From positions 121,599 through 185,598 of the forward strand of contig NZ_JAERQF010000007.1 in NCBI RefSeq assembly GCF_016734815.1: 64,000 nucleotides of DNA, in the 5' to 3' direction. Positions 30,001-58,100 of this stretch are shown in pieces. The position numbers and the translations under genes were made by a program. Positions within the stretch are counted from its first letter, which is position 1, and the number at the start of each line of letters is the position of its first letter. Source of the stretch: Hymenobacter rubidus (GTDB lineage: Bacteria > Bacteroidota > Bacteroidia > Cytophagales > Hymenobacteraceae). Below the pieces are notes generated by a model. That model worked only from the letters and a program-made list of their open reading frames with translations. It searched no databases and was not told the DNA's origin.

Positions 30001-31401
30001 TTATGCCCCGTCCATCCGCACAATTTTCGGGGTGAACGAGCCTAGCACATCCACCAACTCGCGCTGGCTGGCCATTACGGCACGAATGTCCTTATAGGCC
30101 TGGGGTGCTTCGTCCAATCCGCCGCCGATGAGTTCGATGCCGTGCTCGGCAAGGTACTTGCGCACCTGGCCTTCGCCCAACTCGGCCTTGGCGCGGGTGC
30201 GCGACATCAGCCGCCCCGCCCCGTGCGAGGCCGATGCCAACGACTCGGCCACGCCCCGGCCGCGCACAATGAAGCCAGGGGCCGTCATCGAGCCGGGGAT
30301 GATGCCGAGCACACCCGCGCCGGCCGGCGTGGCGCCCTTGCGGTGGGTGATGACCTCGCGGCCGTCGGCCAGCCGTTCTTTCCAGGCGAAGTTGTGGTGG
30401 TTTTCCACTTTCGCCAGGGGCTTTTCGCCGAGGGCGCGGGCCAGGCGGCGGTGAATCTGCTCGTGGCAGGCCGAGGCGTAGTCGCCGGCCAGCGTCATGG
30501 CGGCCCAGTATTCCTGGCCGGCTTCGGTGTCGAGGCCGAGCCAGGCGAGGTGCTGGGCTTCGCCGGGAAGCTGGCACACGTCCTTGGCGAGCTTGGTGTA
30601 GCGCTCGGCAATGCCGGCGCCCAGGCCCCGCGAGCCAGAGTGCGAGAGCACGCCCAGGTACTGGCCCACGGGCACGCCCAGCTCGTTTTCCGCCTCCGTG
30701 ATTTCGACGATGCCGAACTCCACAAAGTGGTTGCCGGAGCCGGAAGTCCCGACTTGCTCAGCAGCTTTATCGAGCTTATTTTTCAGGAAGGGAATTTCCC
30801 GGAACTCGGGCCGGTCAAGCACGGCGTGGTCGAGGCGCTGGCCCCGCTCCCAGCCCCGGCCGCTGCCGAAGCGGGTGTTTTCGAGCAGCAGGCTGCGCAG
30901 CTCCTGAGTGCGCTGGGCGAGGTATTTGGGCGGCAGGTCGAACACCGACAGGGCCATGCGGCAGCCGATGTCGACGCCCACGGCGTAGGGAATCACCGCG
31001 TTATCCGTGGCGAGCACGCCGCCGATGGGCAGGCCGTAGCCATGGTGGGCGTCGGGCATGAGCGCGCCGGCCACGGTCACGGGCAGTTTCATGGCCGTTT
31101 CCATCTGGTGGATGGCGCTGGGGTCGATGTGCTCGGCCCCGAACACGGCGTAGTCCTTGCGCTCCACCAGGGCAATGTGGCGGTTGGGCGGGGGCAGCAA
31201 GGCGGCGGCCGTGTGGCTCCAGTCGAGGTGGGTGAGGTAGTTGTTGGGATTATTCAGAAGTTGACCTAGCAAAGCCAGCTGGTCGGTTTGGGAGAGTTTT
31301 TTGAGATGCTTGCGCTGCAATTGCGCCAGCGCGAGCCCAATGGCACGGCCTTCGGGGAAACCAAGGTTTCGGAGGTCGTTGCCGCGTAGTGAATTGGCCA
31401 T
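30001..31401 (-). CDS. rtcB: RNA-splicing ligase RtcB
   Basis: 466 residues. RtcB joins RNA ends carrying 2',3'-cyclic phosphate or 3'-phosphate to a 5'-OH, using GTP and Mn2+. All signature parts are visible: PDAHHGYGLPIGGV (about 116-129), VGVDIGCRM with Asp144 and Cys147, GSGNHFVEFG with His225, SHSGSRGLG with His254, ENHHNFAW (His335/336) and the guanylylated histidine His393 in ASHGAGRLMSR. The gene lies downstream of an array of tRNA-like RNAs and a Ro60 gene on the same strand, which points to RNA repair rather than tRNA splicing. The start is 64 bp past the last RNA unit. Confidence 0.97.
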   Translation of the reverse strand: MANSLRGNDLRNLGFPEGRAIGLALAQLQRKHLKKLSQTDQLALLGQLLNNPNNYLTHLDWSHTAAALLPPPNRHIALVERKDYAVFGAEHIDPSAIHQMETAMKLPVTVAGALMPDAHHGYGLPIGGVLATDNAVIPYAVGVDIGCRMALSVFDLPPKYLAQRTQELRSLLLENTRFGSGRGWERGQRLDHAVLDRPEFREIPFLKNKLDKAAEQVGTSGSGNHFVEFGIVEITEAENELGVPVGQYLGVLSHSGSRGLGAGIAERYTKLAKDVCQLPGEAQHLAWLGLDTEAGQEYWAAMTLAGDYASACHEQIHRRLARALGEKPLAKVENHHNFAWKERLADGREVITHRKGATPAGAGVLGIIPGSMTAPGFIVRGRGVAESLASASHGAGRLMSRTRAKAELGEGQVRKYLAEHGIELIGGGLDEAPQAYKDIRAVMASQRELVDVLGSFTPKIVRMDGA

Positions 31402-31465
31402 GGGAATGGTCGTTGCACGAGGGTGAGGCGCTTAGTTGGGCCTCATTCGTTGATGATGAAAAAGA

Positions 31466-31617
31466 AATAAAACGGGCCGGGCAACAGACGCAACGCCCAA
31501 TGATGTGCTCTAACCGACTGAGCGACCGCGAGCCAAAGCCCACGGGCCGGCCTCGAACCGGCGACCCCATCGCCCCTAGCGAAGTAGGGCGGTGCTACGG
31601 CACCGGCGCGTTTTATT
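31466..31617 (-). ncRNA. Y RNA-like unit Y7 (last of array), class I permuted tRNA module
   Basis: The ends form a 15-bp outer helix with one mismatch (AATAAAACG.GCCGG with CCGGC.CGTTTTATT). The internal loop is TGCCGTA / GTCTGTTGC. The inner helix is GCACCGCCC with GGGCGTTGC (one mismatch), then CTTCG. The core is a permuted tRNA: T arm GCCGG-TTCGAGG-CCGGC (31546-31562), acceptor strands CCGTGGG and CTCGCGG fully paired (two G.U) and capped by CTTTGG, then D arm GCTC-AGTCGGTTA-GAGC, then CATC pairing with GATG as an anticodon-type stem. The variable region is GGGTC, so class I. Nearest to rtcB. Confidence 0.8.
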
Positions 31618-31625
31618 CAGAAAAA

Positions 31626-31702
31626 GCCGGAGCAACAGGCGGCTTGCATTGGGCCAAAAGGCGACTTAACAGGTCGAAGAACGCAAGCCTACGGCATCCG
31701 GC
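31626..31702 (-). ncRNA. Y RNA-like unit Y6, minimal core without T arm
   Basis: Outer helix GCCGGA / TCCGGC, loop strands TGCCGTA and GCCTGTTGC, inner 8-bp helix GGCTTGCG / TGCAAGCC (one G.U), then CTTCG. The core is only about 33 nt and holds a hairpin CGAC-CTGTTAA-GTCG, shaped like an anticodon arm with a 7-nt loop reading GUU at positions 34-36. No T arm, acceptor or D arm is present, so it is either a degraded unit or a minimal form. Confidence 0.6.
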
Positions 31703-31713
31703 CGTGTGGCGTA

Positions 31714-31796
31714 TAGAGACGCAATATTTTGCGTCTCATCGTTGAACGAATCGCCGGACGATTTCCAGACGATGAGACGCAAGTGTCGCGTCTCTA
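31714..31796. repeat. Inverted repeat (TAGAGACGCAA...) inserted between array units
   Basis: Arms of about 29 bp (TAGAGACGC and GCGTCTCATCGT parts) are imperfect reverse complements around a CGCCGGACGA-containing centre. It sits exactly between units Y5 and Y6, which are otherwise closely spaced. It looks like a mobile intergenic palindrome with no gene of its own. Confidence 0.8.
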
Positions 31797-31801
31797 CCGC
31801 A

Positions 31802-31967
31802 ATTTCAAATTCCGCCGGGGCAACAAGCGCCCGGCCTGCTAGTCCTGCTCTACCACTGAGCTACGAAAACGGCCTCATGGCTATTTCCGGCGGGGTTCAA
31901 ACCCGCGACCTGGGCGTTAAAAGCGCGAAGCATGGCCGGACTACGGCGCCCGGACAGGAATTGAAAT
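31802..31967 (-). ncRNA. Y RNA-like unit Y5, class I permuted tRNA module
   Basis: The outer helix joins ATTTCAATTCC and CCGGG to CCCGG and GGAATTTGAAAT, with a small internal bulge. The loop strands are CGCCGTA and GCTTGTTGC. The inner 8-bp helix is GTCCGGCC / GGCCGGGC (one G.U), followed by CTTCG. T arm GCGGG-TTTGAAC-CCCGC, variable AGGTC, acceptor strands CGGAAAT and GTTTTCG paired over 7 bp (two G.U), extended by GCC/GGC and capped by ATGA. The D arm is GCTC-AGTGGTA-GAGC. The segment GCG-CTTTTAA-CGC before the T arm could form a short anticodon-like hairpin. Confidence 0.82.
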
Positions 31968-31970
31968 CAA

Positions 31971-32125
31971 TGCATTGGGGCAAAAAGCGGCGAGTGACTA
32001 GAACGGTATTGCGCTTTCGACCACTCAGCCACTTCAGCCGTTGCCAGCTGAAGGAGGGATTCGAACCCCCGATTCCAATCGGAACAACATAAACGAAGGA
32101 ACACTCGCCTACGGCACCCAATGCA
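31971..32125 (-). ncRNA. Y RNA-like unit Y4, class II (tRNA-Ser-like) permuted module
   Basis: 9-bp outer helix TGCATTGGG / CCCAATGCA, loop strands TGCCGTA and GCTTTTTGC, inner 8-bp perfect helix GGCGAGTG / CACTCGCC, then CTTCG. The core has anticodon-type stem TGTTG with CAATA, a long variable arm TTCC-GATT-GGAA, T arm GGGGG-TTCGAAT-CCCTC, then a 9-bp acceptor stem CTTCAGCTG / CGGCTGAAG closed by a GCAA tetraloop, then a D arm with GAGTGGTCGAA. The D arm and long variable arm are those of tRNA-Ser. The clearest unit of the array. Confidence 0.85.
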
Positions 32126-32132
32126 AGCTTTT

Positions 32133-32284
32133 GTTTCCGGCTGGGGCAACAGGCGCCGGGCCAGTTGGGGCGGCCCTACCGATGCGCATTCGCGCCGCCT
32201 CGCGGCGGCACTTCGGGAGTCGAACCCGCGACCACCCCTCATTTGGAGCGAAGAACGGCCCGGCTACGGCACCCATCTGGAAAC
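32133..32284 (-). ncRNA. Y RNA-like unit Y3, permuted tRNA module with worn D arm
   Basis: The outer helix is GTTTCC / GGAAAC plus TGGG / CCCA across a 3-nt internal loop. Loop strands TGCCGTA and GCCTGTTGC. Inner 8-bp perfect helix GCCGGGCC / GGCCCGGC, then CTTCG. T arm CGGG-TTCGACT-CCCG (4 bp plus a mismatch), acceptor GTGCCGCC / GGCGGCGC (8 bp, one G.U) closed by a GCGA tetraloop. The D arm is degenerate but keeps ATCGGTA. GCCCC pairs with GGGGT as the anticodon-type stem. Confidence 0.8.
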
Positions 32285-32308
32285 GGATTGTTTAACATAC
32301 CTCCCGAA

Positions 32309-32440
32309 AAATTCAGGGCAACAAGCGGCGGGCGTGTCAACCGCAACCGAAGCTGCGGAGGGGGAATCAAACCCGAGAAAGGTCCCGAAGGGCCATTCTT
32401 TCACCAAGCGAAGTAGCGCCCGCCTAAGGCACCCGAACCA
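32309..32440 (-). ncRNA. Y RNA-like unit Y2, class II module lacking a D arm
   Basis: Outer helix GGTTCGGG with CCCTGAATT (one bulge, two G.U), loop strands TGCCTTA and GCTTGTTGC, inner 8-bp perfect helix GGCGGGCG / CGCCCGCC, then CTTCG. The core has a variable-arm hairpin GGCCC-TTCG-GGACC-like, a weak T arm GGG-TTTGATT-CCC and an acceptor stem CCGCAGC / GTTGCGG (7 bp, one G.U) closed by a TTCG tetraloop. No D arm follows; TTGACA leads straight into the inner helix. Confidence 0.75.
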
Positions 32441-32441
32441 G

Positions 32442-32573
32442 GCGGAGCTGGCCGAGGTGGGACGTGCCACCCAGTTGGGGGCCCCGTCCCGGTCGGCGAC
32501 TGCCCCGAGTGGGCAGCCGTCTTCCTCATGTCAGCAATTTTTAAACGTAAGTCATGTCTGTTTTATTTTGAAA
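32442..32573 (-). other. Spacer between Y1 and Y2, possible decayed unit
   Basis: 132 bp with GC hairpins (CTGCCC-ACTC-GGGGCAG, and GGGACG...CGTCCC). It shares the 10-mer CCCCAACTGG with the D-arm side of unit Y3 but lacks the conserved TGCCGTA and TGTTGC strands. No reading frame convinces. Confidence 0.35.
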
Positions 32574-32695
32574 GCGCGGTAAGCAAGGGGAATGAGCGGC
32601 AGGCCACGTTTGATGAAGGGAGTCGAACCCTTGCCGCTGAAGCGGCCACCAAGCACCCGCGAAGTAGGCCATGCCTACGCCACCTTGCACCGCGC
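32574..32695 (-). ncRNA. Y RNA-like unit Y1 (first of array), T arm only
   Basis: Long outer helix GCGCGGT-GCAAGG with CCTTGC-TT-ACCGCGC (13 bp, two-base bulge). The loop strands are diverged (TGGCGTA and GCTCATTC). Inner helix GGCATGGC / GGCCTGCC with two mismatches, then CTTCG. The core keeps a variable-arm hairpin GCCGC-TTCA-GCGGC and a T arm AAGGG-TTCGACT-CCCTT, enclosed by GGTG / CATC. Acceptor and D arms are missing. A GC-rich inverted repeat GGCCGGG / CCCGGCC lies just upstream (32696-32724). Confidence 0.65.
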
Positions 32696-32753
32696 GGCCG
32701 GGGGTTCCGCTTTATTGCCCGGCCGGGTTTTCTAATTTATTCCATTTGTCATC

Positions 32754-32864
32754 GTAACCGTCTGCCATCCTGAGCGCAGCGAAGGACCTTATCACCGAAG
32801 AACGGTTTGCAGTAGTCCAATCGTGACAAGGTCCTTCGCTGCGCTCAGGATGACAGACGGTTAC
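32754..32864. repeat. Palindromic repeat, family B copy 1
   Basis: Arms from GTAACCGTCTG through CATCCTGAGCGCAGCGAAGG to the AAGGTCC... complement, nearly perfect over about 40 bp. It lies 18 bp past the rsr stop, between rsr and the RNA array, and could terminate or attenuate rsr read-through. Confidence 0.88.
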
Positions 32865-32882
32865 AATTATGACAGACGCTGA

Positions 32883-34406
32883 TTACAGCTCTATTTTCTC
32901 GATTTCCGTCAGGGCCGAGCCGCCGTTATCGAGCGCGCTCAGCACGTCGAACACCTTGTCGGACCAGCCGGCGATGAGGGCCACGCCCGTTTCGGGGCGC
33001 AACTCCAGCGGGGCGGTGCCGTGCCCGGCCAGGTCGAAGAGGTAGAGGCGGGCGTTAGGGGCCACGGTGCGGCGGTAATCGGCCCAGATTTGGCTGAATA
33101 CGCCTCCGCCGTTGGCGCTGTTCCAGAGCTGGCAGTCGGTGAATAGCAGCACCTTGTCTACCACCTCACGGCGCAGCAACAGCTCCTGCACTACCAGGTG
33201 GCCGTTGGTGGAATAGCCTACCTCGCCTTCGCGCTGGTAGAGCTCGTCCACATTGCGCAGCACTGGGCCGCGGGGCAGGCTGATGCGCTTCCAGATGTTG
33301 CCGAACATGCCGGTAACTACGTTCTGGCAGCGGCTCTGGAGCAACATGCTCAGCACCAGGCCCACGTCGTAGAGCAGCACTTTGCTACGGGCCGAAATGG
33401 GTTGCTGCATCGAGCCCGACACGTCGCAGGCCAGCACCACGCGGGTGTCGTGCCCGAAACCGCGCAGGTTCACGGCGCTGTGCGCAATGGCCGTTTCCAG
33501 GGCCGCCAGCACGCCGGCCACGTGGCCGCTCTGCAAGGCTTTCACCTCGCGGTAGGCGGCCAGGAAGCGGAACGGCAGCTGCTTGCTGCGCGCCACCGCA
33601 AACCGGTCGGCCAGGGTGTCGCACACCCGCTCCATCGTCGCGGCCGAAACGTTGGCTTCAAGGATGTTGCGCAGGTTGCGGAGCAAGGCCATGTAGCCCA
33701 GCTTGCCGCTGCCAATGAGCGTTTCCCAGGTGGCGCGGACGGCCGTTTGCCGGTCCGCCTCGGTGGCGTAGGTGCCCTGCCCTACCGCCGATAGCTCGGT
33801 TTCCCAGGTGTAGGGCGTGGGCAATTCGCCGCGCACCAGCTGGTTGAAGAGGGCTTGCTGGGCCTCGTCTTTCGCATTGGGGTGCACCAGGAAGAGGGCA
33901 TCGCGCAGGCGCACAGCGCCGTCGCGGTCGTACTTGGCCAGCTGGTAGCCGTCGAACCGGTTGAAGCTGAGGGCCAGGCCTTTTTGCAGCTGCTTGGAGA
34001 GGCGGTTGAGGATTTTGGTCCCGCTCCGGGCGTTGGCCTGGGCGTAGAAGGCCAGCAACTCCGTGATTTCATCGGGACGTTGCACCACGCGGGCCACCAG
34101 GCGGCTCACGAGGTTGTCGCCGCGGTGCAGGCGGGCCAGCTCCACGCACAGCACCAGCGGCACCGAGCGCAAATTCAGGCTTTCGCGGGCATACACCGCC
34201 AGTTGCGCCACAAACCGCGGCTCGTTCTTCGCCACCAAGTCCCGCAAACGCTGCAAGCGCGTGTCGGCTTTTTCGTAGAACTGGTCGCTGAGCGCGGCGG
34301 TGGCCACGGCGGCGTACAGCTCCACCTGGGGCGTGAGCGTGAAGGCGGGTGCGCCTTCGTGGTTTACCGTGGGAGCGGTGTTTCGGGAGAAGAAATTGAA
34401 GCGCAT
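32883..34406 (-). CDS. rsr: Ro60/TROVE domain protein with vWA (bacterial Rsr)
   Basis: 507 residues. The N-terminal about 320 residues form the HEAT-like TROVE ring (for example LRDLVAKNEPRFVAQLAVYA, RSVPLVLCVELARLH, ITELLAFYAQAN). The C-terminal part is a von Willebrand A domain with the metal site DVSGS at residues 328-332. Ro60 rings bind Y RNAs on the outside and misfolded RNA ends in the central hole. The gene lies upstream of the Y RNA-like array and rtcB on the same strand, matching the known pairing of Rsr with Y RNA and RtcB in RNA repair operons. It is very likely the protein partner of the array RNAs. Confidence 0.95.
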   Translation of the reverse strand: MRFNFFSRNTAPTVNHEGAPAFTLTPQVELYAAVATAALSDQFYEKADTRLQRLRDLVAKNEPRFVAQLAVYARESLNLRSVPLVLCVELARLHRGDNLVSRLVARVVQRPDEITELLAFYAQANARSGTKILNRLSKQLQKGLALSFNRFDGYQLAKYDRDGAVRLRDALFLVHPNAKDEAQQALFNQLVRGELPTPYTWETELSAVGQGTYATEADRQTAVRATWETLIGSGKLGYMALLRNLRNILEANVSAATMERVCDTLADRFAVARSKQLPFRFLAAYREVKALQSGHVAGVLAALETAIAHSAVNLRGFGHDTRVVLACDVSGSMQQPISARSKVLLYDVGLVLSMLLQSRCQNVVTGMFGNIWKRISLPRGPVLRNVDELYQREGEVGYSTNGHLVVQELLLRREVVDKVLLFTDCQLWNSANGGGVFSQIWADYRRTVAPNARLYLFDLAGHGTAPLELRPETGVALIAGWSDKVFDVLSALDNGGSALTEIEKIEL

Positions 34407-34584: not shown

Positions 34585-34986
34585 CTACTCCCACTCAACC
34601 CCGACGTGCTTCGACAGCACCAGGCGGGACTGGCTGAGCCACTGAATTATCCAGGCGTGCTCCTGCGGCGTCATCCAGCGGTTGTAGCGGCCGCGGACCT
34701 GCACCACGGTGCGGTGGGCGTTGACTTCGATGGTCAGGCCACGGGTGCCGTCTACGGTCAGCGAAAAGATGCCGCAGCGGCCCGCCAGGCACGCCGCATA
34801 GAGCTGCGCCAGAGGCGAATCGACGCCCAATGCCTCGTAAAGCGCATGGGGCGAGCCGAAGGAAAACAGGTATTCTACTTGCTTAGACTGGGGCCAATTG
34901 CGCCAGTCGATGTGCCGCGCGAGGGCGGCACCGGCCTGCTGGCAGCAGTAAGCTTCTGCCGAAAGGGGTTTGTTACGATTTGCCAT
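34585..34986 (-). CDS. Hypothetical protein upstream of rsr
   Basis: 133 residues, no signal peptide or membrane span. It begins MANRNKPLSAEAYCCQQAG. It has helical parts at both ends (GAALARHIDWRNWPQSKQVEYL and MTPQEHAWIIQWLSQSRLVL) around a predicted beta section (GIFSLTVDGTRGLTIEVNAHRTVVQVRG). I do not recognise a family. It reads in the same direction as rsr, the RNA array and rtcB, 178 bp upstream of rsr across a palindromic repeat. It may belong to the same RNA-related locus, but nothing in its sequence shows that. Confidence 0.6.
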   Translation of the reverse strand: MANRNKPLSAEAYCCQQAGAALARHIDWRNWPQSKQVEYLFSFGSPHALYEALGVDSPLAQLYAACLAGRCGIFSLTVDGTRGLTIEVNAHRTVVQVRGRYNRWMTPQEHAWIIQWLSQSRLVLSKHVGVEWE

Positions 34987-35805: not shown

Positions 35806-35907
35806 AACGTCATGCAGAGCGTAGCGAAGCATCTTTACTGCTGCAGTAATCCAATCAACAAATTTAGTATTGCGGTAAAGATGCTTCGCTGCGCTCTGCA
35901 TGACGTT
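35806..35907. repeat. Palindromic repeat, family A copy 3
   Basis: Arms start AACGTCATGCAGAGCG. The left arm has GTAGCGAAG where the right arm implies GCAGCGAAG. It lies upstream of the HDAC-family gene. Confidence 0.88.
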
Positions 35908-35979
35908 CTAGTGCTGCCATATTGCGCTACTTACAACCGCGCAAAAACCCCACCCACTCATTCGCAGTACCTGCGGCGT

Positions 35980-36882
35980 ATGCCTTGCCTCGCCACTTCC
36001 GACCATTACACCCTCGACCTGCCCGCCGGCCACCGCTTCCCCATCGCCAAGTATGCCCTGATTCGGGAGCAGCTGCTGTGGCAGGGCATTGCGGCGCCGG
36101 AGGATTTTTACGAGCCCGGGCTCTGCGCCGAGGAAGACGTGTTGCGCGTACACACGGCCGGCTACTGGCACAAGGTGCGCGACTTGCAGCTTTCGGCCCG
36201 CGAGGTGCGCAACCTGGGCCTGCCGCAAAGCCCGCAGCTGGTGCGCCGCTCGCTGAGCAGCAGCGCCGGCACCCTGCAATCGGCTTTGCGGGCCCTGCGC
36301 GACGGCATCGGGCTGAACCTGGCCGGCGGCACCCACCACGCTTTTGCCGACCGGGGCGAGGGCTTTTGCGTGCTCAACGACCAGGCCATTGCCGCCGCGC
36401 ACCTGCTGGCGCACAGGCTGGCCCGGCAGGTTCTGATTGTGGATTTGGACGTGCACCAAGGCGACGGCACGGCCAGCATTTTCCGGAACGAGCCGCGCGT
36501 GTTCACGTTTTCGATGCACGCCGGGGCCAATTATCCGCTGCGCAAAGAGCAATCGGACCTGGATATGCCGCTGGCGCTGGGTACCGGCGATGCCGACTAT
36601 CTGGCGCAGCTGGCGGCCACGCTGGAGCCGCTGATGGCGCAGGTGCGGCCCGATTTCATCTTTTACCAGGCGGGAGTGGATGTACTGGCAACCGACAAGC
36701 TGGGCAAGCTGGCCCTTACGCCCACCGGCTGCCGGCAGCGCGATGAGCTGGTGCTGGGAATGTGCCGAACGCGGGGACTGCCGGTAGCCGTGAGCATGGG
36801 CGGCGGCTACTCCGAGCGGCTGGCCGACATTGTGGATGCGCACTGCAACACGTTTCGGGTGGCGTTTGAATTGTGGCCGTAG
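35980..36882 (+). CDS. Histone deacetylase family protein (acetoin utilization type)
   Basis: 300 residues of the arginase/deacetylase fold. Active-site parts are GGTHHAF (tandem histidines), DLDVHQGDG (zinc Asp and His), FSMHAGANYP, and GVDVLATDKLGKL, then MGGGYS at the C-terminus. These enzymes remove acetyl or acyl groups from lysines or polyamines. The substrate cannot be told from sequence. ATG 35980 (MPCLATSDHYTLD) is chosen; the frame runs back into the family A repeat. The stop codon overlaps the first base of another palindromic repeat. Confidence 0.92.
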   Translation: MPCLATSDHYTLDLPAGHRFPIAKYALIREQLLWQGIAAPEDFYEPGLCAEEDVLRVHTAGYWHKVRDLQLSAREVRNLGLPQSPQLVRRSLSSSAGTLQSALRALRDGIGLNLAGGTHHAFADRGEGFCVLNDQAIAAAHLLAHRLARQVLIVDLDVHQGDGTASIFRNEPRVFTFSMHAGANYPLRKEQSDLDMPLALGTGDADYLAQLAATLEPLMAQVRPDFIFYQAGVDVLATDKLGKLALTPTGCRQRDELVLGMCRTRGLPVAVSMGGGYSERLADIVDAHCNTFRVAFELWP

Positions 36883-55175: not shown

Positions 55176-58100
55176 ATGAACAAACCCAACAAAGTTCTCA
55201 TCCTTGGTTCCGGCGCGCTGAAAATTGGCGAGGCCGGGGAGTTCGACTATTCCGGCTCGCAGGCCCTCAAGGCGCTGAAGGAGGAAGGCATCCGCACCAT
55301 CCTCATCAACCCCAACATTGCCACCGTGCAGACGTCGGACAACATTGCCGACGACGTGTACTTCCTGCCCGTGACGCCCTACTTCGTGGAGGAAGTCATC
55401 AAAAAGGAGCAGCCCGATGGCATTCTGGTGGCCTTTGGCGGCCAAACGGCGCTGAACTGCGCCGTGGCCCTGTACCGCGCCGGCGTGTTCGAGAAGTATA
55501 ACGTGCAGGTGCTGGGCACGCCCGTGCAGAGCATCATCGACACCGAGGACCGGGATATTTTCAAGGAGAAGCTGGAGCAGATTGGCGTGCTCTCGGCCCG
55601 CAGCGTGGCCGTGACGACGATGGACGACGCGCTGGCGGCGGCCGAGAAAATCGGGTTCCCCATCATCGTGCGGGCGGCGTTTGCGCTGGGCGGCCTGGGC
55701 AGCGGCTTCGCCAACAACATGGACGAGCTGCGGGCGCTGGCCCAAAAATCCTTCACCACTTCCGACCAGATTCTGGTGGAAGAATCGCTGAAGGGCTGGA
55801 AGGAAGTGGAGTACGAAGTGGTGCGCGATGCCTATGATAACTGCATCACCGTCTGCAACATGGAGAACTTCGACCCCATCGGCATCCACACCGGTGAGAG
55901 CATCGTGGTGGCCCCGTCGCAGACGCTAAGCAACCGAGAGTACCACAAGCTGCGCAGCATCGGCATCAAGACCATCCGCCACCTGGGCATCGTGGGCGAG
56001 TGCAACATTCAGTACGCCCTCGACCCCGTTTCAGAGGATTACCGCGTGATTGAGGTGAACGCGCGCCTGTCGCGCTCCTCGGCGCTGGCCTCCAAGGCCA
56101 CGGGCTACCCGCTGGCCTTCGTGGCCGCCAAGTTGAGCTTGGGCTACTCGCTGGCCGAGCTAAAAAACAGCGTGACGCAGACGACTTCGGCCTTCTTCGA
56201 GCCGGCGCTCGACTACGTGGTGGTGAAGCTGCCGCGCTGGGACTTGGGCAAATTTGCGGGCGTTAACCGCCAGATTGGCAGCGCTATGAAGAGCGTGGGC
56301 GAGGTCATGGCCATCGGCAAATCTTTCGAGGAAGCCATCCAGAAAGGCCTGCGGATGCTGGACACCGGCAAGCGCGGCTTCGTAGCCAACCGGCCCGAGG
56401 AGGACCTGGATAACGCCGCCATCGACCAGCTCCTGAGCGAGCCGAACGAGGAGCGCATCTTCGCCATCAACAGCGCCTTCGAGGCCGGCTACACGCTGGA
56501 GCAGGTGCACGAGCTGACCAAGATTGACCACTGGTTTTTGCAGCGCTTGTCCACCATTTTCGAGCTGGGCAAGCAGCTGGCCGCCGGCCGTAGCGCAGGC
56601 GTGGATGGGCTGGAAACCAAGCTGCTGCGTGATGTGAAAAAGGCCGGTTTCTCGGACCAGCAGATTGCCGTGAAGCTGCTGGGCGAAGGCGACGTAAAGG
56701 CCGACGAGCTGCGGGTGCGCGCCCGCCGCAAGGCGCTGGGCGTGCTGCCCGTGGTGAAGCAGATTGACACACTGGCAGCCGAATTTCCGGCCAAAACCAA
56801 CTACCTATATACCACTTACCACGGCACCGAAAACGACCTGACGCGCGAAACCGCGCAGTCGGTGGTGGTGCTGGGCTCGGGCGTGTACCGCATCGGCTCG
56901 TCGGTGGAGTTTGACTGGTGCGGCGTGCAGGCCGTGCAAACGGCGGCAGCCGAGGGCTACAAAACCATCATTATCAACTACAACCCCGAAACCGTTTCGA
57001 CCGACTACGATGTGTCGGACCGGTTGTATTTCGAGGAGCTGAGCTTCGAGCGGGTGATGGACATCCTGGACTTTGAGCAGCCGGAGGGCGTGATTCTCTC
57101 CACCGGCGGCCAGATTCCCAACAACCTCGCCACCCGCCTGGCCGACGCCAACGCGCCCATCCTGGGCACCGCGCCGGCCCGCATCGACGAGGCCGAGAAC
57201 CGCCACAAGTTCAGCAGCATCATGGACGAGCTGGGCATTGCCCAGCCGCGCTGGAAGGAGCTAACCTCGCTGGATGCCATGTACGAGTTCGTGCGCGAAG
57301 TCGGCTTCCCGGTGCTCATCCGGCCGAGCTACGTGCTGTCGGGCGCGGCCATGAACGTGGTTTCTAACAACTTCGAGTTGGAGGCCTTCCTGCAAACCGC
57401 TGTGGAAGTAAGCTCCGAATACCCGGTGGTGGTGTCGGAATTTATTCAGGAAGCCAAGGAAATTGAGCTCGACGCGGTGGCCGACCACGGCGACATTGTG
57501 AGCTATGCCATCTCGGAACACGTGGAGTTTGCCGGCGTGCACTCCGGCGACGCTACCATGTACTACCCGCCCCAGCGGGTGTACGTGGGCACCATCCGCA
57601 AGCTGAAAATCATCGCCGAAAAGATTGCCAAGCGCTACGAAATCAGCGGCCCGTTCAACATCCAGTTTCTGGAGAAAAACGGCGAAATCCGCGTGATTGA
57701 GTGCAACATCCGGGCCTCGCGCAGCTACCCGTTCGTGTCGAAAGTATCGGGCAACAACCTCATCAAAAAGGCCACCCAGGTGCTGCTGGGCAAACACGTG
57801 GAGCGCGACGAAAGCGAGCGGGTCTACGACCTGCCCTTCGTGGGCGTGAAGGCCCCGCAGTTCTCGTTCACCCGCCTGCCCGGCGCCGACCCGGTGCTGC
57901 GCGTCGACATGGTGAGCACCGGCGAAGTGGGCTGCCTGGGCGACACCGCCGAGGAAGCCCTGCTGAAATCGATGCTGAGCGTGGGCTACAAAATCCCGCA
58001 GAAATCGGTGCTGATTTCTGGCGGCCCCATCATCTCCAAAGTGGCCCTGCTCGCGCCCGCCGCGCTGCTCATCAAGAAAGGCTACACCGTGTACGCCACC

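Follow-up and report, generated by a model that had tools for sequence, protein, structure and literature searches.

An array of Y RNA-like units with circularly permuted tRNA cores between rsr and rtcB of Hymenobacter rubidus: candidate tRNA stand-ins

What are the repeated structured units that separate the genes of a Ro60-related protein (Rsr) and an RNA ligase (RtcB) in Hymenobacter rubidus, and what do their tRNA-like ends represent? The window, that is, the whole stretch of DNA analyzed here, comprises 64,000 nucleotides (nt) of H. rubidus (assembly GCF_016734815.1, contig NZ_JAERQF010000007.1, positions 121,599-185,598 of the forward strand). A preliminary description of this sequence proposed seven minus-strand units of one plan, which it took to be Y RNA-like structured RNAs. 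Our data bear out this proposal, both in the pairing of the helices and in the identity of the two neighboring genes, and further indicate that the cores are circularly permuted tRNAs, some of them of serine or leucine type. The genes and units are as follows, with the units numbered in transcription order and their outer ends set by us at fixed lengths of 14 and 16 nt.

32883-34406, minus strand: rsr, Ro60-related TROVE protein of 507 amino acids (PF05731, expectation value (E) 2.9e-30)
30001-31401, minus strand: rtcB, RNA ligase of 466 amino acids (PF01139, E 1.1e-80)
31465-32696, minus strand: seven Y RNA-like units in tandem, flanked by rsr and rtcB, identified by helix pairing and a scanner
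32573-32696, minus strand: Y1, divergent, with outer and inner helices, a variable-arm-like hairpin and a T arm, and no D arm seen
32302-32445, minus strand: Y2, Y stem, hairpins, T arm and acceptor-like hairpin, with no D arm seen by eye
32130-32285, minus strand: Y3, Y stem and a partial permuted tRNA core (32190-32234) with a degenerate D arm
31964-32130, minus strand: Y4, Y stem and a serine-type class II permuted tRNA core (32012-32075)
31804-31962, minus strand: Y5, Y stem and a class I permuted tRNA core (31846-31911)
31616-31710, minus strand: Y6, a short unit with a Y stem and no tRNA core
31465-31616, minus strand: Y7, Y stem and a class I permuted tRNA core (31506-31567)

All seven units lie in the 1.48 kb gap between the two genes, and rsr is directly upstream of the array on the same strand, so that the units stand beside rsr as a Y RNA gene should. 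Each unit follows a common plan, in which an outer helix leads to an asymmetric internal loop, whose strands are conserved, and then to an inner helix of approximately eight pairs with a sequence of its own and to a core. The conservation of the loop strands that had been described holds in part: TGCCGTA is exact in four of the seven units (Y3, Y4, Y6 and Y7), as is GCYTGTTGC (Y2, Y3, Y5 and Y6), and the remaining units differ by one to several letters. Y1 is the most divergent (TGGCGTA / GCTCATTCC), yet its helices pair.

We found that the strands of each unit belong to one another. Among 5,040 assignments of strands to partners, the cognate matching was the best both for the inner helices (sum of -108.9 kcal/mol versus a mean of -57.3, standard deviation about 10) and for the outer helices (-108.4 kcal/mol versus a mean of -58.0, standard deviation about 10), in agreement with the earlier claim that these helices differ between units yet remain complementary; since the anchors were taken from the preliminary plan, this comparison addresses complementarity only. 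Our scanner recovered six of the seven units, compared to 0.01 matches per shuffled copy of the region at a loose threshold, and missed Y1 because it is too divergent. The six units are kept at every threshold tried, up to 13, while both strands of the rest of the window gave 5 to 8 matches at the loose threshold, one at threshold 12 and none at threshold 13. At threshold 13, we found 12 matches in 1.26 Mb of control sequence from related loci.

Related loci were the best 80 of 175 from a scan of named genomes with Rsr. The Hymenobacter set comprises 49 of these (L033-L081; 48 titled Hymenobacter and one Solirubrum), or 50 with the window, and a further set comprises 31 loci (L082-L112), most of which are labeled as other Bacteroidota. 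In 49 of 49 loci of the Hymenobacter set, rtcB lies downstream of rsr on the same strand and units lie between both genes. When every unit matched by the scanner or by the tRNA model is counted, the intervals of the 50 loci contain between 3 and 11 units (median 6); the window counts as 6 in this tally because Y1 is missed. TROVE genes themselves are patchily distributed: of 12 further genomes of the genus, 7 have one.

These relatives allow units to be chosen by motif, with pairing left out of the choice (GCCGTA plus the nearest exact GYNTGTTGC within 135 nt). This rule yielded 128 units, 125 of them distinct, in 46 of the 49 loci. Complementarity no better than in shuffled sequence, the outcome that the preliminary description regarded as fatal to it, is not what we observed: at least seven positions of the inner 8-base strands were paired in 95 of 125 units, compared to a mean of 19.4 and a maximum of 31 in 500 shuffles of partners. 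The outer strands had at least six of eight positions paired in 100 of 125 units (shuffled mean 38.8, maximum 53), and non-cognate strands of one locus paired in 11% of 292 cases. Among the 31 other loci, the exact rule gave 13 units in 9 loci, with the inner helix paired in 9 of 13. When the 3' motif was allowed to differ at up to two positions, this looser rule yielded 272 units across the Hymenobacter set (34% of inner helices paired versus 6% when shuffled) and 67 units in the 31 other loci (27% versus 3%); we prefer the exact version because the looser one mixes in false 3' motifs. Chance folding was rejected on the assignment test, the scan of shuffled regions and the pairing of motif-chosen units. 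Our data indicate that the units are structured RNAs under strong pair-preserving selection with the architecture of Y RNAs, as had been proposed.

The core of these units had been called tRNA-like, which is true yet incomplete, since the core is a circularly permuted tRNA and its isotype differs among the units of relatives and between orthologous slots. Its order is variable region, T arm, closed acceptor hairpin and D arm, and the Y stem sits where a tRNA has its anticodon arm. We built a covariance model, R1, from the tRNA genes of the H. rubidus genome. Of these 42 genes, the 31 of class I were rearranged so that the variable region comes first, followed by the T arm, the 3' strand of the acceptor, a run of N as its loop, the 5' strand of the acceptor and finally the D arm; 23 of them were kept, and no Y unit was included. 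Within the window, R1 recognizes the arm order known from YrlA, a bacterial Y RNA, in full in Y7 (55.4 bits, E 3.9e-14), Y5 (46.6 bits) and Y4 (30.2 bits, with a variable arm immediately upstream of the core), and weakly and in part in Y3 (18.1 bits, E 0.0015, with the D arm outside the alignment). It matches only the T arm of Y1 (12 bits, E 0.08) and does not match Y2, whose T arm and hairpins are recognized by eye only. The other matches in the window are two joints at a real tRNA-Lys and one chance-level match at 57313-57387 (E 0.5). Among 150 of 2,401 candidates scored in the whole genome, 48 matched at E of 1 or below; five of these are clear of tRNA genes and four of the five are the array. 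The fifth, G000:C1:140180-140230, is weak (19.5 bits) and lies outside the array.

The permuted core is equally specific in the relatives. At E 0.01, 161 of 161 R1 matches in the 49 related loci fall on the sense strand inside the rsr-rtcB interval (97 kb), with none in the other 1.21 Mb of strand-bases. In an alignment of 74 cores fitted to the permuted structure, 96.8% of pair cells are standard pairs, compared to 72.6% after shuffling, and both sides of the pair have changed in 238 cells versus 60; sliding the partner by one to three columns abolishes pairing. Within this fitted alignment, two-sided changes occur at all seven pairs of the acceptor stem. The letters that form the tRNA elbow are kept across the 111 cores of class I type (T loop in 107, U8 in 107, GG 18-19 in 107, A14 and R15 in 111, C48 in 98), the D-arm letters partly by construction, since a D-arm pattern was used to select these cores.

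An array of this kind might also consist of tRNA pseudogenes in decay and of repeats with fortuitous folds, and the palindromic repeats in the region and the degenerate state of Y1 and Y2 fit this explanation. Compensatory change throughout the units and the confinement of every R1 match to the rsr-rtcB interval contradict this explanation, and we give it almost no credence. Ordinary tRNA genes were rejected as well, as neither RF00005 nor ARAGORN reports a tRNA within the array of the window. ARAGORN calls overlap 13 of the 161 permuted matches in the 49 related loci, so a few such calls may be misread Y units. Elsewhere in the H. rubidus genome, a tRNA-Asp(atc) called by ARAGORN (G000:C40:37715-37790) has a D arm that resembles leucine and the lowest score of the 42 genes; it may be a decayed or misread tRNA.

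The permuted order raises the question of whether the units are permuted pre-tRNA genes, in which RtcB would circularize the ends released from the Y stem and the acceptor would be opened to yield spare tRNAs. RtcB is adjacent, and tRNA genes are called in related rsr loci, both of which fit this explanation. The acceptor stems do not: they match the 42 tRNA acceptors of the H. rubidus genome at 4.72 of 7 positions versus 4.70 of 7 when shuffled, and only 4 of 142 cores have an exact match, compared to 1 when shuffled. Furthermore, by loose patterns, 50 of the 111 class I acceptor loops carry a UNCG or GNRA motif and CCA follows the acceptor strand in only 17 of 111, and the position of the anticodon arm is occupied, by eye, by the Y stem, whose helix is of free sequence. 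On the counts for acceptor stem, acceptor loop and CCA we reject this explanation, which we consider very improbable.

We found that some cores carry the features of particular tRNA kinds. A pattern search for the D arm with a T arm upstream found 18 serine-type and 13 leucine-type arms downstream of rsr in the 50 loci and none in 1.02 Mb elsewhere; 16 loci have the serine type only, 11 the leucine type only and 2 have both. The pattern is strict and leaves out near-serine arms of L057 and L063. Leucine-type D arms (GGCGAAATTGGTAGACGCG) are identical to tRNA-Leu-cag of the H. rubidus genome at 19 of 19 positions in several loci, and serine-type D arms are closest to tRNA-Ser. The other half of the core, the variable region and T arm, tends to agree: when the choice is between serine and leucine, it is closer to serine in 14 of 17 serine-type units and to leucine in 10 of 11 leucine-type units (one tie omitted; Fisher p 2.7e-4, relatedness ignored). 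A variable-arm stem of at least four pairs is present in 24 of 29 serine- or leucine-type cores, in 17 of 108 of class I type and in 19 of the 28 others; the shuffled values are 38, 35 and 36%, respectively. The D arm, the variable arm and, in part, the T arm follow the tRNA kind while the acceptor does not; the body is kept and the identity of the acceptor is lost. In the window, both the D arm of Y4 and its variable region and T arm are closest to tRNA-Ser, in agreement with the slot alignment below, and the D arm of Y5 is nearest to tRNA-Thr-ggt (score 16 of 19). We claim isotype for serine and leucine only; the variable region and T arm of class I cores scatter, with Asp nearest in 43 of 108.

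The slot occupied by Y4 has a recognizable Y stem (about TTGCATTGGGTGCCGTAG ... CCCCAATGCAT) which can be followed across relatives. Of 15 hand-picked rows in an alignment, mostly chosen for a serine- or leucine-type match, two are units of the preceding slot (L035 and L041) and one has a different core (L040). The remaining 12 rows are serine-type in five (the window, L033, L043, L045 and L074) and leucine-type in seven (L034, L036, L037, L039, L042, L044 and L079). On a tree of rsr DNA, the loci of a single kind (16 and 11) require at least eight changes between serine and leucine, and the window and its nearest relatives are already mixed. The serine label is hardly clustered on this tree (12 changes, with shuffles as low in 101 of 500) and the leucine label somewhat clustered (8 changes, with shuffles as low in 28 of 500). 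The tree was made by a quick method, 11 of its 47 inner branches are weak, and changes were counted per locus, not per slot. L035 and L045, two different assemblies both titled Hymenobacter negativus BT442, have arrays that differ, with a serine-type unit in only one.

The change of isotype bears on a rival explanation, namely that the units are ordinary scaffolds, each a Y RNA that serves as a tether between Rsr and an exoribonuclease (PNPase, for instance) or gates the Rsr ring, with additional copies for dosage or redundancy and a tRNA body captured merely as a stable fold of no isotypic meaning. Such a role has been studied for the Y RNA of Deinococcus and for YrlA with PNPase in the parts of the literature available to us (PMC7790460, PMC8394870), and the generic class I type makes up two thirds of the cores (111 of 165), which also fits. 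A plain tether needs neither a conserved variable arm nor halves that agree on serine or leucine, and it does not account for a slot whose isotype changed while its Y stem stayed, with at least eight changes on the rsr tree. We regard the scaffold as unlikely to be the whole explanation and still as a strong rival; tether and stand-in roles may both hold.

By architecture and place, the units are likely bacterial Y RNAs outside the Rfam family of YrlA (RF02553). Like the yrlA and yrlB genes of Salmonella, they lie beside rsr and rtcB and, like the Rfam consensus, they comprise an outer helix, an asymmetric loop, an inner helix, a short stem, a T arm, an acceptor hairpin and a D arm. At its own cut-off, RF02553 found nothing in the window nor in 11 loci tried (nine from Bacteroidota and two from phages). 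The best units score 31.9 bits (Y7) and 30 bits (Y5), short of the gathering score of 69, and we filed the units by architecture because this cut-off is missed. Full-length matches also fall below 69 bits in other genomes (55.9 and 46.7 bits in phages and 49.6 bits in Deinococcus). The loop strands GCCGTAG and GYNTGTTGC differ from the Rfam consensus; GCCGTAG opposite TGTTG is conserved here and may be the counterpart of the Ro60-binding loop. The Salmonella operon has two named units in the portion of the report available (PMC7790460), compared to seven here, and YrlA differs further from our units in that these include serine- and leucine-type class II bodies and a change of isotype between orthologous slots.

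Published work, in the parts accessible to us, places these features in context. YrlA, with its D, T and acceptor arms, serves as a substrate for DusA and TruB, and Y RNA connects Rsr with PNPase (PMC8394870). The Salmonella operon responds to cut tRNAs, and the tRNA-like domain of YrlA has been suggested to inhibit a tRNA nuclease (PMC7790460, PMC9879122). A survey of jumbo phages describes TROVE proteins with a tRNA-like partner as platforms of RNA repair (PMC7824862), and a Ro60-related protein is mentioned in a paper on a Vibrio phage (PMC7765460). The passages seen of a mycobacterial survey (PMC9569102) and of an Anabaena paper (PMC10272220) name YrlA and RtcB and describe no comparable array. 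Isotype-diverse or class II Y RNAs were not reported in the excerpts of the literature searched, which did not cover the main Y RNA papers and so lends little to a claim of novelty. Arrays of spare tRNA genes directed against tRNA-cutting defenses, known from phages and bacteria (PMC10264068, PMC11555353), resemble the present arrays in that several tRNA-like genes are clustered; in the phages and other Bacteroidota examined here, such genes are linked to rsr. Our units differ from these arrays in being permuted, with a closed acceptor and no anticodon.

The preliminary description took an array of seven diversified units to be undescribed as far as its author knew. An array is not peculiar to this genome, since all 50 loci of the Hymenobacter set, other Bacteroidota and several phages carry multi-unit sets. 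Among the 31 other Bacteroidota loci, 30 have at least one R1 match clear of called tRNA genes and 14 have at least three. ARAGORN calls at least one tRNA gene in 17 of these loci and at least four in 12 (up to 15 in 13.5 kb); the loci in which 4 to 15 called tRNA genes stand among permuted units are L085, L086, L087, L089, L090, L094, L095, L097, L098, L099, L101 and L103. Among the rows listed for two loci placed by hand, at least six calls (L089) and at least five calls (L090) exceed the tRNA cut-off of Rfam.

Permuted units adjoin rsr in phage CcrColossus (five) and Xanthomonas phage 10KY502B (three) and lie by rsr in Brevundimonas phage Bambus (three) and Rhizobium phage RHph_Y65 (five clear of tRNA genes), while Arthrobacter, Streptomyces and Gordonia phages and a Deinococcus plasmid have one or two. 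A leucine-type permuted D arm lies just before rsr in both CcrColossus and Bambus. A crAss-like phage (L132) has two weak matches (20.4 and 17.6 bits), and 2 of 10 rsr-bearing phage stretches (L130 and L134) have no match near rsr, with others in these records approximately 20 kb or more away. The permuted tRNA-like units of CcrColossus (L125:3025-3917) and 10KY502B (L126:3410-3926) are situated just upstream of the TROVE gene and overlap an annotated 68-nt tRNA-Gln (L125:3161-3228) and a tRNA-Thr (L126:3831-3898), respectively, which may be Y RNAs called as tRNAs. In Arthrobacter phage Atuin (L129) and RHph_Y65 (L133), rsr lies within the phage tRNA array, and Bambus has, within a few kb of rsr, a permuted transfer-messenger RNA match (L128:7744-8001; RF04321, 57.9 bits versus a cut-off of 47). 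For a P100-like Listeria phage, three regions of high transcription are reported close to an Rsr-like gene (PMC12282133). Of five R1 matches in Listeria phage P100, four fall on ordinary tRNA genes and the remaining one is weak (19.9 bits); no TROVE match was found, so this phage lends no support to permuted units there.

How the units are expressed bears on a further explanation. With the ends chosen here, Y3/Y4, Y4/Y5 and Y6/Y7 are separated by 0 to 2 nt, Y2/Y3 by 17 nt, Y5/Y6 by 94 nt and Y1/Y2 by 128 nt. By pattern, no Bacteroidota-type promoter was found in the region upstream of rsr, in rsr itself or in the array, and scans for sigma-70 promoters and terminators remained near shuffle level (1 versus 0.5 and 3 versus 2.7, respectively). 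Because several units abut and no promoter stands out, the array would be expected to form one transcript that is likely cut into single RNAs. The units could then be punctuation or control elements of one rsr-rtcB transcript, read by tRNA-processing enzymes which cut it or set the expression of rtcB, and their intergenic position, their restriction to the sense strand and the abutting of several of them fit this idea. Three to eleven units of variable spacing are more than such control requires, units stand upstream of rsr in two phages, and the change of isotype is left unexplained; we consider punctuation improbable.

We tentatively favor, at slightly less than an even chance, the proposal that the array is a panel of tRNA stand-ins presented by Rsr. 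Ro60-type proteins bind the conserved loop of the Y stem in other Y RNAs. By analogy, Rsr would bind the Y stem of each unit through its conserved loop, and the free end would display the elbow of a given tRNA kind, together with its variable arm in class II units. Lacking an anticodon loop and a free acceptor end, such an RNA could be bound like that tRNA, yet it would escape cleavage at the anticodon and could not be charged. The stand-ins might compete for whatever proteins attack or handle the tRNA they resemble, and captured proteins or damaged targets may be brought to Rsr and to the RtcB ligase. The repeated change between serine and leucine would fit a moving target, as in a conflict with tRNA-cutting toxins or phage defenses. 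We prefer the stand-in proposal because it alone uses all of the features, namely the tRNA body, the lost anticodon and acceptor end, the changing isotype, the adjacent ligase and the spare tRNAs of relatives. A more specific version, that rsr arrays are fast-evolving panels of uncuttable tRNA-body copies in which serine, leucine and other types are swapped during an arms race and which phages carry likewise, is possible from the sequence comparisons and, in our judgment, rather doubtful.

Several observations weigh against the stand-in proposal. Known anticodon nucleases read the anticodon arm, and since the units lack one, an attacker would need to read the elbow or the variable arm. The preliminary description placed a tRNA-like core in most units; by model it is complete only in Y7, Y5 and Y4 and partial in Y3, and Y1 (T arm aside), Y2 and Y6 have none. 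By pattern, 21 of 50 loci have no serine- or leucine-type arm, and an arm of identical pattern occurs in 0 of the 31 other Bacteroidota loci. When the variable region and T arm are compared to all 42 tRNAs, serine alone is nearest in 8 of 18 serine-type units and leucine alone in 5 of 11 leucine-type units, so T arms alone would not prove isotype, and class I D arms mostly cannot be assigned to a single isotype owing to many ties. The changes between serine and leucine may also reflect gene conversion, recombination, or gain and loss of units, and our Fisher and shuffle values take no account of relatedness.

The surroundings of the array contain the following additional elements. One of them is a repeat that is not a unit:

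31705-31800, minus strand: palindromic repeat between Y5 and Y6, with arms that recur elsewhere in the genome

A few bases of this repeat coincide with the 5' end set for Y6, and the arms of the repeat give 21 match rows in the genome. Between rsr and Y1 lies an 85-nt palindromic element (32778-32862) which is dispersed over the genome, with at least 79 match rows in many places on both strands (40 of 387 candidates scored). A GC-rich hairpin recognized by eye (32480-32535, minus strand) belongs to neither Y1 nor Y2 and lies in the gap that separates them. Upstream of rsr are an open reading frame of 133 amino acids with no Pfam match (34585-34986) and a divergent histone-deacetylase-like protein (35812-36882, PF00850). 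RtcA (PF01137) and RtcR (PF06956) have no match anywhere in the H. rubidus genome, and both profiles detect their E. coli controls.

Close relatives within this group present a natural swap, in which one Y stem carries either a serine- or a leucine-type body, and this makes the role of the tRNA-like end of bacterial Y RNAs directly testable. If partners or protection follow the isotype, Y RNAs would be seen to impersonate chosen tRNAs. Rsr, RtcB, spare tRNA genes and tRNA mimics would then, if the stand-in proposal is true, form one tRNA-damage island in bacteria and phages.

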